From: Alphaproteobacteria bacterium
GTDB taxonomy: Bacteria > Pseudomonadota > Alphaproteobacteria > DSM-16000 > Inquilinaceae
Direction: 5' to 3'
Assembly (NCBI GenBank): GCA_009909005.1
Contig: JAAAOG010000141.1
Location: 1-38,916, forward strand
Length of the DNA stretch: 38,916 nucleotides
A program made the translations under genes and the position numbers. This document shows positions 2,890-20,700 of this stretch, piece by piece (position 1 is the first letter of the stretch; each line of letters begins with the position of its first letter). The notes below the pieces were generated by a model. That model saw nothing but the letters and a program-made list of their open reading frames with translations, did no database searches and had not been told where the DNA came from.

Positions 2890-3273
2890 TTATGGCAACC
2901 GGGCCGCTGCTCGAAGTTTTGCGACATAGCCGTCATAGTCCAAGGGACAGTCGATCAATGCGATACAGTCCTCGGTCGGTAACCAGGCTCAACAGATCGG
3001 CCTTGAGTGCCTTCGCGTCTGTGTAAAGGGCATCATCGTCTTCGCAGGCGATTTCGGTCCAGAGAATGTCGAACTCGGTGAGGGCATCCGTGATGGCGTC
3101 GGCGACGGAGCTGCCCACGCCATGGATCGAAAACCGATGGTTGACGGCGAAGAGGTCGAACCATCCTCGCCGATTGTGATCTCCAGGCCGAAATCGTCCG
3201 TCAGCCGATAATGGACATGCGGCAGCCGGATCTCCCGCATGCGCCGTATCGCCTTGTCGTTTTGCGCTGCCAT
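2890..3273 (-). pseudogene. hypothetical protein with two compensating frameshifts
   Basis: One protein can be assembled only by changing frame twice. It starts at 3273 (MAAQNDKAIRRMREIRLPH...ITIGEDG), shifts near 3161 into the frame reading FDLFAVNHRFSIHGVGSS...LKADLLSL, then returns near 2978 to the first frame (PTEDCIALIDCPLDYDGYV...) and stops at 2890-2892. Each piece looks protein-like and together they give about 127 residues. I do not recognise the family. It may be a decaying gene, or two sequencing errors may explain it. Confidence 0.55.
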
Positions 3274-3376
3274 AAGCCATATCCTGCTGTCATCGTTCCA
3301 TAGTGCGGCCTTCCGGCTGTGTCTTCAATGGCTCAGCGAGCCGACCGCCACCTTGAAAAATATCGCTTCTACTGTC

Positions 3377-3413
3377 GGAGGGACGTTGCGGTCGGCGAGG
3401 ACGCCGACCCTCC
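3377..3413. terminator. GC hairpin in the intergenic region, possible terminator or dispersed repeat
   Basis: A perfect 8-bp inverted repeat (GGTCGGCG, loop AGGA, CGCCGACC) spans 3390-3409 and is flanked by a second pair, GGAGGG and CCCTCC. There is no T-run, so intrinsic termination is doubtful. It looks more like a dispersed REP-type palindrome between the frameshifted gene and the MscS gene. Confidence 0.35.
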
Positions 3414-3510
3414 AACCCCTTATCATTGACACGGCAGGACGAGGGGCTTCCGCGGGTGGGGTGGCGGTGGTAGAGGGGTGAAGGCGGACGGGGGCGGAGG
3501 AGCCGGCATC

Positions 3511-5877
3511 ATGGTCCGGATTGGAATTCGGCTGTTGCTGGCGACCGTGCTGGCCGCGGTGCTGTCCGCTGTGCTGTCCGCTGTGCTGATAGGGGGCCTG
3601 TCGGCGCCGGCCGGGGGCCAGCTGCCGGGCCTTCCGGGCCAGCCCGCCGCTACAGGCGCGGCCGAGGGGCCGGGCGACGGGGCGGCCGGTCCCCCGGGCA
3701 CCGCCCCGGACGCAGCGGCGCAACCCGCCGATCCGGCCGACATCGCCGAATTCATAAGGCTGCTGGGCGATCCGGGCCTCCGCGCCTGGCTGGAAGAGCA
3801 GGCCGCGGCGGGGGAAGCGGAGACGGCCGCGGCCCCGGCGGCCGGCGGCTCGTTCAGCGCCTATCTGCATGACTCGCTGGAGCGGTTGCGCGGCAATGTC
3901 CAGGCGCTGACCGCCGGCCTCGCCGCCTTGCCTGCGGAGCTCGACCGGGCGCAGGCCATCTGGGCGCTGGAAATGCCGGAGGCCCGCACCCTCCGCTCGC
4001 TGCTTCTGGTCGGTCTGTTCCTCGCCATCGGCATCATCGCCGAAGCGCTCTATTGGTGGCTGACCCGGGACCTGCGCCAACGGATCACCGCCGCCCCGGC
4101 GGCCGCGCCGGCCGCCCGGCTGTCGCGCACGGCCCTGCGCCTCGGCATCAACGGGCTGGCGGTGGGGGTGTTCGCGATGGCCTCGCTGGGCGCCTTCCTG
4201 GCCTTCGACTGGCCGCCGATCGTCCGGCTGTTCATCATCAGCCTGCTCGGCGCCTTCGTCATCGTGCGGCTGATCAACGCCCTGTCGGTCTTCCTGTTCG
4301 CGCCGCTGATCCCGACCCTGCGCCTGGTGCCGCTGGAGAGCGCCGATGCCCGCTATCTGCACACCCGGCTTCTGGCCCTGGCGGTGCTGGTCGCGTTCGG
4401 AGCCCTGGCCGGCGGGGCGCTGGAGGCGCTCGGCTTTCTGCCGCAGAGCCGCCCGGTGCTCGGGGCGCTCCTCGGCCTTGCGGTGGCGCTGCTGCTGATC
4501 GCCATGGTCTGGGAGCGGCGGCAGGACATCGCGCACCTGCTGCTGCGCGGCAGCGGCAAGGAGACGGGCGAGCAGCGCATTCAGGCCGGACTGGTCGCAC
4601 TGCTGCCCTGGTTCGCCACCCTCTACGTGCTGACGATCTGGGCGCTCTGGGTGATCGGCGCCCGCGGGGTCATGTGGCTGCTGCTGCTCCTGGTGCTCCT
4701 GCCGGCGGCCGATCGCGCCGGCCGCTGGGCCATCGCCGCGCTGTTCGCGCATCCGCACAGGCCCGCCCAGGAGGGCGAGAAGGAGGAGGCCGACCGGCCC
4801 GAGCAGAGCCCCTTCGTGCCGGTGCTGCAGCGGACCTATCGGGTGGTGCTGGTCATCCTCGCCATGCTGATCCTGGCGGCCGCGTTCCGGCTGGAATGGT
4901 GGACCTGGACCGACAGCGCCTCGCCGGCCGCCGCGGTGCTGCGGGCGGTCTTCAACATCGTGGTGACGCTGCTGCTCGCCGACCTCGCCTGGTCGCTCGC
5001 GCGCACCGCCATCGACCGCAAGCTGCAGGCGCTCGCCCCGGCCGGGGCGGCCGAGGCCGGCGCCCATGCCGATGCCGGCGGCGAGGGTGGCGGCACGGCC
5101 GGCCCGCACGCGCGGCTGCAGACACTGCTGCCGCTGGTGCGGAAATTTATCCTCGGCGTGCTGGTGGTGATGGTGGCGCTGATCGTGCTGTCGGCGCTGG
5201 GCGTCGATATCGGACCGCTGCTGGCCGGTGCCGGCGTCGTCGGCCTGGCCATCGGCTTCGGCGCTCAGGCGCTGGTCCGCGATATCGTCGCCGGCATCTT
5301 CTTCCTGATCGACGACGCCTTCCGGGTCGGCGAATACATCGAGATCGGCGAGCTGCGCGGCACCGTCGAAGGCATTTCCATCCGCTCGCTGCGGCTGCGC
5401 CACCATCGCGGCGCCGTCCACACCATCCCCTTCGGCGAAATGACCTCGGTGACGAACTACAGCCGCGACTGGGTGATCATGAAGCTGGAGTTCCGCATCC
5501 CCTTCGAGACCGATCTCGCCAAGGTGAAAAAGCTGGTCAAGGACCTCGGCAAGGAGCTGCTCAAGGACCCGACCATCGGCCACAGCTTTCTGGAGCCGCT
5601 GAAATCCCAGGGCGTGCGGCGCTGGGAGGAGTTCAACATGGTCCTGGGCGTCAAGTTCATGGCCAGGCCCGGCGAGCAATGGCTGATCCGCCGCGAGGTC
5701 TATCAGCGGCTGCGCGACCGCTTCCGCGAGAACGGCATCGAATTCGCCAGCCGCGACGTCCAGGTGCGGGTCTCGCAAAAGGCGACGCCGGAGGATATCG
5801 AAGAGGCGGTACAGGGCGCGGCCATCGAGGCGGTGGGCCCCCCGCAGCCGGACAAACCGTCGCCGGCCGCCGGGTAA
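3511..5877 (+). CDS. large mechanosensitive ion channel, MscS family
   Basis: A 788-residue multi-pass inner-membrane protein. It begins with a signal-like hydrophobic segment (RLLLATVLAAVLSAVL) and an Ala/Pro-rich periplasmic stretch, followed by several hydrophobic helices between about residues 160 and 600. The C-terminal third is the MscS core: pore helix motif GLAIGFGAQALVRD, then the beta domain with RVGEYIEIGELRGTVEGI and HTIPFGEMTSVTNYSRDW. It is much longer than the ~286-residue MscS and resembles the MscK/YbdG-style expanded class. Such channels release solutes on hypo-osmotic shock. The ATG at 3511 follows GGAGGA by 9 nt; a GTG at 3478 is possible but has no better site. It stands alone. 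Confidence 0.9.
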   Translation: MVRIGIRLLLATVLAAVLSAVLSAVLIGGLSAPAGGQLPGLPGQPAATGAAEGPGDGAAGPPGTAPDAAAQPADPADIAEFIRLLGDPGLRAWLEEQAAAGEAETAAAPAAGGSFSAYLHDSLERLRGNVQALTAGLAALPAELDRAQAIWALEMPEARTLRSLLLVGLFLAIGIIAEALYWWLTRDLRQRITAAPAAAPAARLSRTALRLGINGLAVGVFAMASLGAFLAFDWPPIVRLFIISLLGAFVIVRLINALSVFLFAPLIPTLRLVPLESADARYLHTRLLALAVLVAFGALAGGALEALGFLPQSRPVLGALLGLAVALLLIAMVWERRQDIAHLLLRGSGKETGEQRIQAGLVALLPWFATLYVLTIWALWVIGARGVMWLLLLLVLLPAADRAGRWAIAALFAHPHRPAQEGEKEEADRPEQSPFVPVLQRTYRVVLVILAMLILAAAFRLEWWTWTDSASPAAAVLRAVFNIVVTLLLADLAWSLARTAIDRKLQALAPAGAAEAGAHADAGGEGGGTAGPHARLQTLLPLVRKFILGVLVVMVALIVLSALGVDIGPLLAGAGVVGLAIGFGAQALVRDIVAGIFFLIDDAFRVGEYIEIGELRGTVEGISIRSLRLRHHRGAVHTIPFGEMTSVTNYSRDWVIMKLEFRIPFETDLAKVKKLVKDLGKELLKDPTIGHSFLEPLKSQGVRRWEEFNMVLGVKFMARPGEQWLIRREVYQRLRDRFRENGIEFASRDVQVRVSQKATPEDIEEAVQGAAIEAVGPPQPDKPSPAAG

Positions 5878-14252: not shown

Positions 14253-15053
14253 TTATTTGTAATATTTGCGGAACGCGGGCTTCCGCTTTTCCTGGAAGGC
14301 CTTGACCCCTTCGCGGGATTCTTCCGTCTGATAGAACATCCGCACCTGATGGAGCCCCATGCCGGCGATGCCGGCGATATTGGCGCTGTCGGCATTGAAG
14401 GAGCGCTTGGCGATCGCCAGGGCCGTCGGGCTCATCGCCAAAATCTCGGCACACCATTGGTCGACCTCGTCGTCCAACCGGTCGTCCGGCACGGCGCGGT
14501 TGGCCAGGCCCATCTCGACCGCCTGCTGCGCCGAGTAGCGCCGGCAGAGATACCAGACCTCGCGCGCCTTCTTCTCGCCGATGCAGCGGGCCATGTATGC
14601 GGTGCCGAAGCCCGGGTCGACCGAGCCGACCTTCGGCCCGACCTGGCCGAACACCGCGCTCTCGGCCGCCAGCGTCAGGTCGCAGATCAATGCCAGCACA
14701 TGGCCGCCGCCGATGGCATAGCCGCGCACCTTGGCGATCACCGGCTTGGGCACCTCGCGGATGATGGTCTGCATCTCTTCCAGCGGCAGGCCGATCACCC
14801 CGCGACCGTCATACTGGCCGTCATGGGCGGACTGGTCGCCGCCGGTGCAAAAGGCGCGGGTGCCCGCTCCGGTCAGCACGATGACGCCGATATCCCTGTT
14901 CCAGCCGGCGCGGTTGAAGGCGTGGATGATCTCCTCGCAGGTCTGCGCCCGAAAGGCGTTCATCCGCTCCGGCCGATTGATGGTGATGGTCGCCACCTCG
15001 CCGGTCTCGAAGTGCCGCTCTTCGTAGAGAATGTCCTGATAGTCGGTCGTCAT
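14253..15053 (-). CDS. badI: 2-ketocyclohexanecarboxyl-CoA hydrolase-like (BadI/MenB branch of crotonases)
   Basis: 266 residues, full crotonase length. The stretches NAFRAQTCEEI, AFCTGGDQSAHDGQYDGRG, YAIGGGHVLALICDLT and FGQVGPKVGSVDPGFG, plus the end EESREGVKAFQEKRKPAFRKY, follow BadI of Rhodopseudomonas palustris more closely than MenB. BadI opens the ring of 2-ketocyclohexanecarboxyl-CoA to pimelyl-CoA in anaerobic benzoate or cyclohexanecarboxylate breakdown. The oxyanion-hole segments are present. No other ring-degradation genes adjoin it, so the substrate is uncertain; DHNA-CoA synthase (MenB) is the alternative, but no menaquinone genes are seen. The match is from memory of the family, not an alignment. 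Confidence 0.72.
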   Translation of the reverse strand: MTTDYQDILYEERHFETGEVATITINRPERMNAFRAQTCEEIIHAFNRAGWNRDIGVIVLTGAGTRAFCTGGDQSAHDGQYDGRGVIGLPLEEMQTIIREVPKPVIAKVRGYAIGGGHVLALICDLTLAAESAVFGQVGPKVGSVDPGFGTAYMARCIGEKKAREVWYLCRRYSAQQAVEMGLANRAVPDDRLDDEVDQWCAEILAMSPTALAIAKRSFNADSANIAGIAGMGLHQVRMFYQTEESREGVKAFQEKRKPAFRKYYK

Positions 15054-15141
15054 ATGCCGCCCCTCCTGGCTCGCTGCCTTGCCCTCGATTTAGCGCAGCC
15101 GACCCGCCGTCGGCTATCATGGTGGCGTCATCAAATTGACG

Positions 15142-15175
15142 TTGACACAAGCAGTTTGATGTGTATTTATACACA
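15142..15175 (+). promoter_or_regulatory. strong promoter with overlapping operator palindrome
   Basis: TTGACA at 15142-15147 and TATTTA at 15164-15169 are 16 nt apart, a near-consensus sigma70 promoter. A perfect palindrome TGTGTATTTATACACA (15160-15175) covers the -10. A repressor bound there would block initiation. It drives the CRISPR-like repeats and perhaps hicAB about 330 nt further on, or could control badI divergently. Confidence 0.6.
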
Positions 15176-15207
15176 CAGCCGTTATGGAGCATTAACCAAA
15201 TGCTCAT

Positions 15208-15433
15208 TTCCGCGGCAAGTGCTGCCGCGGCCTCATTGAACCCACATACCCGCAGAAACTCAGCCTGCGGTGATGCTGGGCTGTTTGTCCTCGCTATCTA
15301 TTGGGAGGGTGAGCAGAGTGGCCGTGCAGTTACTGCTACAGCGGTAAAATAAACGGCCTTTCCGCGGCAAGTACTGCCGCGGCCTCATTGAAGCGGCTAA
15401 TTCCGCGGCAAGCACTGCCGCGGCTCGATTGAA
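15208..15433 (+). repeat. three CRISPR-repeat-like 33-bp hairpin elements
   Basis: Copies at 15208-15240, 15360-15392 and 15401-15433. Each begins TTCCGCGGCA, has a perfect 8-bp stem (CCGCGGCA/TGCCGCGG) around a 5-nt variable loop (AGTGC, AGTAC, AGCAC) and ends in ATTGAA. Copies 1 and 2 differ by one base; copy 3 differs by about four. A GC palindrome with a GAA-type 3' end is the format of many CRISPR repeats. Spacing is irregular (119 and 8 nt between copies) and no cas gene is in the window, so this is not a functional array. It could be a remnant, a regulatory RNA of the CreA/mini-CRISPR kind, or a dispersed palindrome. Confidence 0.7.
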
Positions 15434-15435
15434 GG

Positions 15436-15452
15436 ATCATGCGTACCATGAT
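15436..15452. promoter_or_regulatory. small inverted repeat upstream of hicA, possible HicB operator
   Basis: ATCATG, CGTAC, CATGAT lies 39 nt before the hicA ATG. HicB antitoxins with ribbon-helix-helix domains bind short palindromes at their own promoter, so this is a candidate. No convincing -35/-10 pair was found beside it. Confidence 0.3.
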
Positions 15453-15490
15453 GCGCAATAAATCTGTCCAACACACTTGGAGTCGAGTAA

Positions 15491-15707
15491 ATGCCGCGAA
15501 GCTTATCGAGCCGGGAGATCATCCAGCGGCTCGAGTCTAGAGGGATGGAGGCTTAATCGGATCAACGGAAGTCACCATCTCTATACTCATTCCGCAAAGC
15601 CGGGATATATCGTGGTGCCGCATCCTCGCAAGGACATGCCTATCGGCACTCTCAAGAACATCTTTCGTAGAGCCGGATGGTCATGGCCGGATAGGAAACG
15701 AGAGTAA
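15491..15707 (+). pseudogene. hicA: HicA toxin with a +1 frameshift
   Basis: The HicA fold can be read only by dropping one base near 15542-15545. MPRSLSSREIIQRLESRG is in the frame of the ATG at 15491. WRLNRINGSHHLYTHSAKPGYIVVPHPRKDMPIGTLKNIFRRAGW is in the next frame and runs to TAA at 15705-15707. As written, the ATG frame stops at 15554 after 21 codons. The catalytic His in GSHH and the double-stranded-RNA-binding-like core are preserved. HicA is an mRNA interferase neutralised by HicB. The stop overlaps the hicB ATG (TAATG), the usual coupling. Either the toxin is dead or one base is a sequencing error. Confidence 0.8.
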
Positions 15708-16153
15708 TGCCCAGCTATATCGGCCTTATTCGCAAGGAACCGGGCACGATTTACGGGATCGACTTCCCCGATTTCCCCGGTTGCATCAGTGCCGACGAAA
15801 CCCTCGAAGCGTGCCTCAAATCGGGGCGCGAAGCGTTGCAGACCTGTGTCCAATTCATGCTGGACGAGGGGATGGAGATCCCCTCGCCAAGCTCGCTTGA
15901 AGATATCCTGGCCGATCCGGATTCGCATGACGCGCTGGCCGTCCTCGTCGAGCTGCCGCCGGTCAAAGGCAAGGCGGTACGCGTCAACATCACGCTTGAC
16001 GAGTATCTGCTGACGGAGATTGACCGGGCTGCGTCCCGCCGTCAGATGAACCGATCGAATTTTCTCGCCTGGGCCGCCCGGCAGGCCATGCACAGGCCGG
16101 AAGACCAGCGCCGCGCGCTTCATCTGGCAACCGAAGACCAGCAAAGCCCGTGA
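15707..16153 (+). CDS. hicB: HicB antitoxin
   Basis: 148 residues. The N-terminal half is the HicB partial RNase H fold (YIGLIRKEPGTIYGIDFPDFPGCISADETLEACLKSGREAL). The C-terminal part VRVNITLDEYLLTEIDRAASRRQMNRSNFLAWAARQAM is a ribbon-helix-helix DNA-binding domain. It should bind HicA and repress its own operon. It is intact although its toxin is frameshifted, which suggests retention as a regulator or very recent toxin loss. Confidence 0.93.
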   Translation: MPSYIGLIRKEPGTIYGIDFPDFPGCISADETLEACLKSGREALQTCVQFMLDEGMEIPSPSSLEDILADPDSHDALAVLVELPPVKGKAVRVNITLDEYLLTEIDRAASRRQMNRSNFLAWAARQAMHRPEDQRRALHLATEDQQSP

Positions 16154-18566: not shown

Positions 18567-18977
18567 TCACCGGCCGACGTGCCAGTTCTCCAGGATCAGC
18601 GGGCCCGGAATGCGCTGGAAATGTGCCATGTTATTCGTCACCAACACCGCTTCCCGGGCAATCGCATGGGCGGCAATCATCATGTCGAGTTGACCGATCA
18701 GCCGGCCGGTCAGGGTCAGAGCATGGCGGATGCCGGCATAAACATCGGCCGCCTCGGCATCCCACGGCACACCCGTCACGCGCCCCAGAAAACGCTCTAT
18801 GATCACGCGCAGATCCTCGCGCTCTGGCCTCTTCGCGAGCCCGTATCTCAGTTCCGCGCGGGTGACGGCAGAGACCAGTATCTGCGAATATGACAATTCT
18901 GACATTCGCGCGGCAATGCCCGGCGAGCGCTTCTTCAGAAGATAACTGATCGTGTCTGTGTCCAACATGTATTTCAT
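18567..18977 (-). CDS. vapC: VapC family PIN-domain toxin
   Basis: 136 residues with a complete PIN domain: Asp in MLDTDTISYL, Glu in VTRAELRYGL, Asp in IGQLDMMIAAHAI and the final acidic/NN pair in LVTNNMAHF. These are metal-dependent site-specific RNases that act on tRNA or rRNA. It begins 2 nt after the upstream vapB, forming a normal vapBC operon read leftward. Confidence 0.92.
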   Translation of the reverse strand: MKYMLDTDTISYLLKKRSPGIAARMSELSYSQILVSAVTRAELRYGLAKRPEREDLRVIIERFLGRVTGVPWDAEAADVYAGIRHALTLTGRLIGQLDMMIAAHAIAREAVLVTNNMAHFQRIPGPLILENWHVGR

Positions 18978-18979
18978 GG

Positions 18980-19249
18980 TCAGGCGTCTTCACGGAACGG
19001 ATCGCTGTCTTCCGGCACCGTGTTCATCGGCCTGTCTTCAAGAAAGTCCGACGGCACGTCGACCGTTTCCAGCAGCGCAAAGAAATCGTCCCACGATCCC
19101 CGGTCGGGGCGGGTGGTCAGCGTGACATCTCCGGTTGCCTCGTCCCGGATCGCGTAGACCTCTGTGCCGTCGAAGCGGAAATCGGCCGGCAGACGGACCG
19201 CCTGACTGGCGCCGTTCTTGAAAAGCTTGGCAATGCGAACATCGGCCAT
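18980..19249 (-). CDS. vapB: VapB-type antitoxin (copy next to vapC)
   Basis: 89 residues. The AbrB/SpoVT-like N-terminus VRIAKLFKNGASQAVRLPADFRFDGTEVYAIRD binds DNA, and the acidic C-terminal tail (DDFFALLETVDVPSDFLEDRPMN) should wrap VapC. An ATG at 19255 also exists. I prefer 19249 because GAGG is 8 nt upstream and the copy at 19542 starts at the same residue (MADVR). Confidence 0.9.
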   Translation of the reverse strand: MADVRIAKLFKNGASQAVRLPADFRFDGTEVYAIRDEATGDVTLTTRPDRGSWDDFFALLETVDVPSDFLEDRPMNTVPEDSDPFREDA

Positions 19250-19281
19250 GGCCATTTCCTCATAAGAAACAATGCGCCGTT

Positions 19282-19542
19282 TTAGACATCCCGGTCGACG
19301 GGAGGCGTGTTCAATGGCCGATCTTCCATGAACCCCGCGACGTCCTCATCCTTGAGCTCGGAAATCATCGCGAGCAGATCGTCCCAGTCTCCGCCATTGG
19401 GCCTGGACGAGAGCGTGACATCTCCGGTTGCCTCGTCCCGGATCGCGTAGACCTCCGTGCCCTCGAAGCGGAAATCGGCCGGCAGCCGGACCGCCTGGCT
19501 GGCGCCGTTCTTGAAGAGCTTGACAACGCGAACGTCCGCCAT
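19282..19542 (-). CDS. second VapB-type antitoxin, tandem paralogue
   Basis: 86 residues, near-identical to the neighbouring VapB over residues 1-50 (KLFKNGASQAVRLPADFRF, TEVYAIRDEATGDVTL). The C-terminal toxin-binding tail diverges (GGDWDDLLAMISELKDEDVAGFMEDRPLNTPP). No second vapC follows: the next gene in the operon is the other vapB, 32 nt on. GGGGAGG lies 5 nt before the ATG. It could neutralise a toxin elsewhere or be left from a duplication. Confidence 0.88.
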   Translation of the reverse strand: MADVRVVKLFKNGASQAVRLPADFRFEGTEVYAIRDEATGDVTLSSRPNGGDWDDLLAMISELKDEDVAGFMEDRPLNTPPVDRDV

Positions 19543-20435: not shown

Positions 20436-20589
20436 CCCGGCGCGGAAACGCCCGCCTCCTGCTTCGATGGCTAATTTGCAGGCATGCCGCCCTGCAATTG
20501 ATCGTCGCGCTGCCGATCGTGGCAGCGCCTAAGCCCCTCGCACCCCTGCATACAGTCGGCACGGGACTTGCTAAGACGTGTGCATAATG
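20436..20589. other. intergenic region upstream of riboswitch
   Basis: Contains a TTGCAGG...CCTGCAA hairpin around 20475-20495, which may end the preceding transcript. A CATAAT sequence lies at 20583-20588 just before the riboswitch, possibly its -10 box, but no good -35 is seen. Confidence 0.4.
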
Positions 20590-20700
20590 CGCCTAGGGTT
20601 CCGGCCGCCATGGGGCGGTGCCTGGTCCGAGAGGTGCACTCCCGCACTCGCCACGTCCGGCGGGCGCGGAGCCACGGCGGGACAAAAGCCCGGGAGACTC
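20590..20700 (+). ncRNA. guanidine-I (ykkC) riboswitch
   Basis: The conserved blocks of the ykkC class occur in order: CTAGGGTTCCG (20593 on), CTGGTCCGAGAG (20631 on) and CACGGCGGGACAAAAGCC followed by CGGGAGA (ending near 20698). Between them are variable stems. This RNA binds free guanidinium and turns on downstream genes. A strong hairpin (CCGGCCCTTC with GAAGGGTCCGG, near 20712-20736) follows without a T-run, so control is more likely at translation or via Rho than by an intrinsic terminator. It precedes an ABC importer and a guanidine hydrolase, which fits the ligand. Confidence 0.95.

Follow-up and report, generated by a model that had tools for sequence, protein, structure and literature searches.

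Two published systems bear on the locus studied here. CreTA and CrePA use a crRNA-like RNA to direct Cascade to the promoter of a toxin (PMC8501985; PMC12737573). Seed nucleotides 1-5 and 7-11 are critical in CreTA (PMC8501985), CrePA is the protein-toxin version with a KilA-N toxin (PMC12737573), and ectopic creA repeats are characteristically degenerate (PMC9458426). For the type I-G CRISPR effector, a 36-nt repeat with a 7-bp stem has been described, which Csb2 cleaves 4 nt beyond the 3' side of the stem to leave an 8-nt handle (PMC9638904).

We analysed a window of 38,916 nt (the whole stretch of DNA, contig JAAAOG010000141.1 of an Inquilinaceae bacterium, here the home genome), in which three CRISPR-like hairpins stand before a hicAB toxin-antitoxin locus. 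An initial annotation had proposed that a repeat-derived RNA guards the HicA toxin in the manner of CreTA, with a simple array remnant as the plain alternative. The features compared are collected in Table 1.

Table 1. Features of the locus and of related repeats in the home genome (G000); positions refer to the window unless a contig or locus is named.
Feature	Position	Strand	Remarks
Enoyl-CoA hydratase family gene (ECH_1)	14253..15053	-	divergent neighbour
Upstream stretch, expected leader site	15098..15206	+	palindromes 15160-15175 (TGTGTATTTATACACA) and 15187-15205 (GAGCATT-AACCA-AATGCTC); CTCG absent at 50-59 nt
I-G-type CRISPR repeat R1	15207..15242	+	stem and CCTC linker intact; handle ATTGAACC, end altered relative to ATTGAAGC
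R1-R2 gap	15243..15357	+	115 nt, approximately spacer+repeat+spacer; no middle repeat or phage/plasmid match
I-G-type CRISPR repeat R2	15358..15394	+	complete 37-nt repeat CTTTCCGCGGCAAGTACTGCCGCGGCCTCATTGAAGC; 8-nt handle intact
I-G-type CRISPR repeat R3	15399..15435	+	stem intact; linker CTCG and handle ATTGAAGG degenerate
Inverted repeat ATCATG-CGTAC-CATGAT	15436..15452		between R3 and hicA
hicA (PF07927, C-terminal part E 4.7e-15)	15491..15706	+	frame disrupted
hicB antitoxin (PF15919, E 1.7e-30)	15707..16153	+	intact
Second toxin-antitoxin locus	18567..19542	-	less than 4 kb from hicAB
Guanidine-I riboswitch (RF00442, 82 bits)	20582..20698	+	
Putative RT-Cas1 and CRISPR array	L041 (G000:C63) 952-2967 and 3103-3597		repeat GTTCCACCTGCCGCGCTTTTCAGGAAGCGGATGAAAC
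Second repeat cluster	L008 9593-9926 (G000:C79:54592-54925) and L009 148-662 (G000:C134)		
REP-like tandem arrays	G000 contigs C171, C142, C57, C18, C113, C163, C205 (L042-L049)		

Repeat copies and subtype

Three direct copies of a 34-nt unit were found, at 15207-15240, 15359-15392 (97%) and 15400-15433 (82%), with start-to-start distances of 152 and 41. When up to 3 mismatches were allowed, the 21-nt core occurred three times in the window and not once in 100 dinucleotide shuffles. The 8-bp stem CCGCGGCA/TGCCGCGG is perfect and invariant in R1, R2 and R3, the 5-nt loops differ (AGTGC, AGTAC and AGCAC), and all three copies share the end ATTGAA. The initial annotation had described these hairpins, with their stem, changing loop and ATTGAA end, correctly, and its gaps of 119 and 8 nt are also right for a unit of 33 nt. 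Substitutions among the three copies fall in the handle, the linker and the loop and spare the stems; in these small numbers, the invariance of the stems hints at a constraint that neutral decay would not necessarily produce, a point against a plain remnant. The segment 15200-15440 has a strong predicted fold of about -116 kcal/mol.

A narrow pattern of 35 letters, beginning with TTTCC and with the length of the loop fixed, gave no match in viral and genome contigs, and the I-G family became visible only with a variable-loop pattern. This general pattern, TTCC-NN-GGC-N4-8-GCC-NN-GG-N-CTCATTGAAGC, leaves the stem bases free and the loop variable, and it matched at least 117 stretches in other, public bacterial genomes. 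From these matches, 80 loci were examined as the comparison set. Loci with two or more copies had a median period of 71-79, and most of them held one dominant repeat in near-identical copies. The free bases of the stem arms were complementary in 78 of the 80 loci, over many arm types, and the stem is thus conserved as a structure. R2 was the sole exact match to the pattern in the home genome.

Relatives of I-G cas genes were found by tblastn with a few queries in the fetched flanks of 19/80 loci, a lower bound, since the flanks were short and many loci stop at contig borders. By NCBIfam, the proteins adjoining such arrays were type I-G Csb2, Csb1/Cas7g, Cas8g2 and Cas3g in one genome (G049) and type I-G Csb2 and Cas7g in Niveispirillum. 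G003, which belongs to the same family as the home genome, carries both an I-G operon and an array whose repeat is related. When plasmids were searched with the R2 unit, one weak match was obtained (85.7%, E 0.3), on a plasmid of Methylomagnum ishizawai. It consists of two repeats that directly follow the csb2 and cas3'' genes of a system of type I-U, the former name of type I-G, and these repeats agree with R2 at their ends and differ in their stems.

The geometry of R2, stem-CCTC-ATTGAAGC, fits the published I-G cut, with an 8-nt handle beginning 4 nt past the stem, and the Methanosarcina barkeri I-G repeat likewise ends in ATTGAAGC (quoted in PMC10504553). Judged by their sequence, the three hairpins are genuine subtype I-G CRISPR repeats. 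The term CRISPR repeats in the initial annotation was right, and the pattern family, the covariation, the cas neighbours and the handle sharpen it to a subtype.

Leader, spacing and cas genes

Among loci L056-L135, L202 and L203, 42 I-G-type arrays were available for a comparison of leaders, and in 36 of them a CTCG motif starts 50-59 nt before the first repeat. The motif is mostly GCTCGNAA-like, starts about 53 nt upstream in arrays from many phyla, and is likely an integration or leader anchor. No CTCG leader motif was found within 110 nt upstream of R1, and the nearest CTCG before R2 lies at 70 nt.

The spacer-like gaps of 115 and 5 nt are both unusable, I-G spacers being about 36 nt long. 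The distance of 152 between the starts of R1 and R2 is approximately 2 x 76, near two I-G units. A search of this gap for a hidden middle repeat gave a best alignment score that was equalled by 531 of 1000 shuffles, and no match of the gap to a phage or plasmid was found.

Searches of the home assembly (96% complete, 230 contigs) found no match for Csb1, Csb2 or the Cas3 HD domain, while the same searches were positive in five relatives, four relatives and eight control genomes, respectively. The only Cas1 of the home genome is a 671-aa protein adjoining an array with an unrelated repeat. A reverse transcriptase part appears to precede Cas1 in this protein, which would make it an RT-Cas1. Contig C63 ends inside the linked array.

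None of the features of a working I-G array that we tested (effector, leader, spacing and targets) was found at the locus. The simple array remnant of the initial annotation is the best-supported reading, and R1-R3 are very probably what decay has left of an ancestral I-G array, in a lineage that no longer carries the matching cas operon. With the assembly 96% complete in 230 contigs, an I-G operon could nevertheless lie in an unassembled part. The I-G operon and array of the same-family genome G003 make it plausible that an ancestor had such a system. Deletions would then have reduced the ancestral array, presumably accompanied by such an operon, to R1 and R2, a stretch between them from which the middle repeat has gone, and R3 as the degenerate last copy. 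The array was presumably lost at this very site; a 421-bp query of the region had no match in 20 relatives. As there is no Csb2 to cut a transcript and the spacers measure 115 and 5 nt, crRNA processing is presumably absent and the locus should make no functional crRNA. Its position before hicAB is most likely incidental, that of a chance neighbour. If the remnant has any present role, it would act through its structure, as leader RNA or DNA of the hicAB transcript.

The hicAB genes and the region upstream

Of the toxin-antitoxin pair named in the initial annotation, HicB is intact and the frame of HicA is broken. The N-terminus of HicA (MPRSLSSREIIQRLESRG) is read in the frame that begins at 15491, whereas the GSHH...HPRKDMPIGTLK part requires a different frame, a break seen in the assembly that may be an assembly error. 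HicB homologues with 36-48% identity were found in 12 of 95 other genomes searched, and PADLOC gave no result for HicA or HicB. The inverted repeat between R3 and hicA is a candidate HicB operator, and the two perfect inverted repeats between the enoyl-CoA hydratase family gene and R1 are possible operator sites.

The usual spacing of sigma-70 -35 and -10 elements is 16-18. The TTGACA (15142) and TATACA (15168) that had been taken for a strong promoter are separated by 20 nt, and a sigma-70 scan of 14900-15750 did not find this promoter. No terminator-like site was found in the same interval.

Elsewhere in the window, the second toxin-antitoxin locus was recognised by eye from the list of open reading frames; it has a VapC-like PIN gene in a row with two VapB/AbrB-like antitoxin genes that are near-duplicates of each other. 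An Rfam scan of the window returned the guanidine-I riboswitch and a tRNA and nothing else.

Another reading is that the hairpins persist because they influence hicAB transcription independently of Cas proteins, either through the structure of a 5' leader or as palindromes in the DNA. They lie on the hicAB strand, 57 nt upstream of the hicA start, with stems invariant in 3/3 copies and the strong fold given above. However, no homologous region was found in the 20 relatives, young CRISPR relics would likewise be expected to keep their stems, and the interval 14900-15750 lacks a terminator-like site. We regard such a cis-acting structure as unlikely.

A functional orphan I-G mini-array, served in trans by an effector that the assembly missed, is quite improbable. 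In its favour, R2 is complete with an intact handle, and the home assembly reaches 96% completeness in 230 contigs. Against this stand the absent leader motif, the irregular spacing, the lack of spacer matches in phages and plasmids, and the absence of three I-G/type I markers from the genome.

The toxin-guard reading holds that the repeats make a crRNA-like antitoxin RNA with which an I-G Cascade represses hicAB, so that loss of Cascade frees the toxin. In its favour, real I-G repeats stand on the coding strand just 5' of hicAB, R1 and R3 are degenerate like ectopic creA repeats (PMC9458426), and CrePA with its KilA-N toxin sets a protein-toxin precedent (PMC12737573). However, when seeds were compared with the hicAB region, R1 and R2 reached at best 8/10, within chance, and the 10/10 match of R3 is R3's own sequence. 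The initial annotation had suggested looking for complementarity to the gap near the promoter of the toxin-antitoxin pair; complementarity of gap and tail to the hicAB region was at chance level. An 8-nt match to the hicAB region, ACCATGAT, was rejected; it was reached by 6% of shuffles, was one of several tests and does not lie at a seed position. hicAB was absent from the fetched flanks of all 80 I-G-type loci. With no I-G effector gene in the home genome, no spacer of useful length in the gaps of 115 and 5 nt, no I-G leader motif, a hicA frameshifted in the assembly and 0/80 loci with hicAB, a CreTA-like guard of HicA is very unlikely. A CrePA-like module with a HicA toxin, once coupled to an I-G Cascade missing from the assembly and now decaying after its loss, is scarcely credible.

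A second repeat cluster and REP palindromes

The initial annotation had named many copies scattered through the genome as evidence against its proposal; we found one other I-G repeat cluster only, which is spread over two contig ends, the 3' one of C79 and the 5' one of C134. It holds about 12 copies, alternating at 74 and 75 nt, and forms a tandem satellite with a period of 149 in which two I-G repeats alternate with two spacer-length segments. These "spacers" comprise just two sequences (A and B), both of which finish in a REP-like palindrome, and the two end palindromes are those found in tandem arrays across the genome. A query with the paired REP-like palindromes GGAGGGTCGGCGTCCCGCCGACC and CGGCGGCAGGATGCCGCCGCTCC gave more than 200 matches in the home genome.

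The unit length of the second cluster is that of an I-G repeat plus spacer, with the REP pieces inside spacer-length DNA. This suggests either that the array acquired spacers from REP sequence of its own host or that REPs replaced spacers, with the 149-bp dimer being amplified afterwards. The REP spacers are possibly self-derived and, more speculatively, self-targeting could have favoured the loss of cas genes. The 9-bp sequence GCCCCGGAG occurs at both edges of the cluster, in C79 and C134, a duplication consistent with the insertion of an element, missing from the assembly, into what was a single array. The I-G leader motif is absent here too. We read the C79/C134 cluster as a second I-G array remnant, fused with REP palindromes.

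That the hairpins of the window are REP/BIME-type dispersed palindromes with a chance likeness to a CRISPR repeat is extremely improbable: tandem arrays of REP-like palindromes abound in the genome and the second cluster is interleaved with such palindromes, but R2 agrees with the I-G repeat at all conserved positions and not with REP sequences, the unit is confined to two clusters, and the at least 117 pattern matches, the array-like periods and the adjoining I-G cas genes contradict it.

Discussion

The locus is a case in which an eye-catching layout, CRISPR repeats beside a toxin, could be settled: the repeats are genuine and typable from their sequence, and the features of guidance are absent. 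The leader CTCG at 50-59 nt and the position of the handle together offer a quick test for live or dead I-G arrays. In the second cluster, fused with REPs, a bacterial satellite may have drawn on the repeats of a CRISPR array that was no longer alive.

The locus shares with type I-G arrays the TTTCC start, the GC-rich stem of 7-8 bp, the CCTC linker, the 8-nt handle ATTGAAGC, the length of 36-37 nt and a degenerate last repeat, the degeneracy of R3 resembling that of a trailer-end repeat. It differs from those arrays, with their spacers of about 36 nt, in lacking the leader motif, in having only three copies with gaps of 115 and 5 nt, and in the absence of I-G cas genes from the genome. The RT-Cas1-linked array on contig C63 is a CRISPR in the same genome, but its repeat is unrelated to the I-G repeat.

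CreTA and CrePA have in common with the locus ectopic CRISPR repeats near a toxin gene, but they have a cognate effector and a spacer seed-matched to the toxin promoter, both of which are missing here. The toxin of this locus is HicA, frameshifted in the assembly and paired with HicB as a protein antitoxin of its own, and no cas genes are linked to the locus. The REP-like arrays resemble the BIMEs of E. coli in their local tandem amplification, each array having its own linkers. With orphan or decayed CRISPR arrays the locus shares few repeats, irregular spacing and the lack of a cas effector of the matching subtype. Nothing essential sets it apart from them, and what is unusual is the fusion of REP palindromes into the second cluster.
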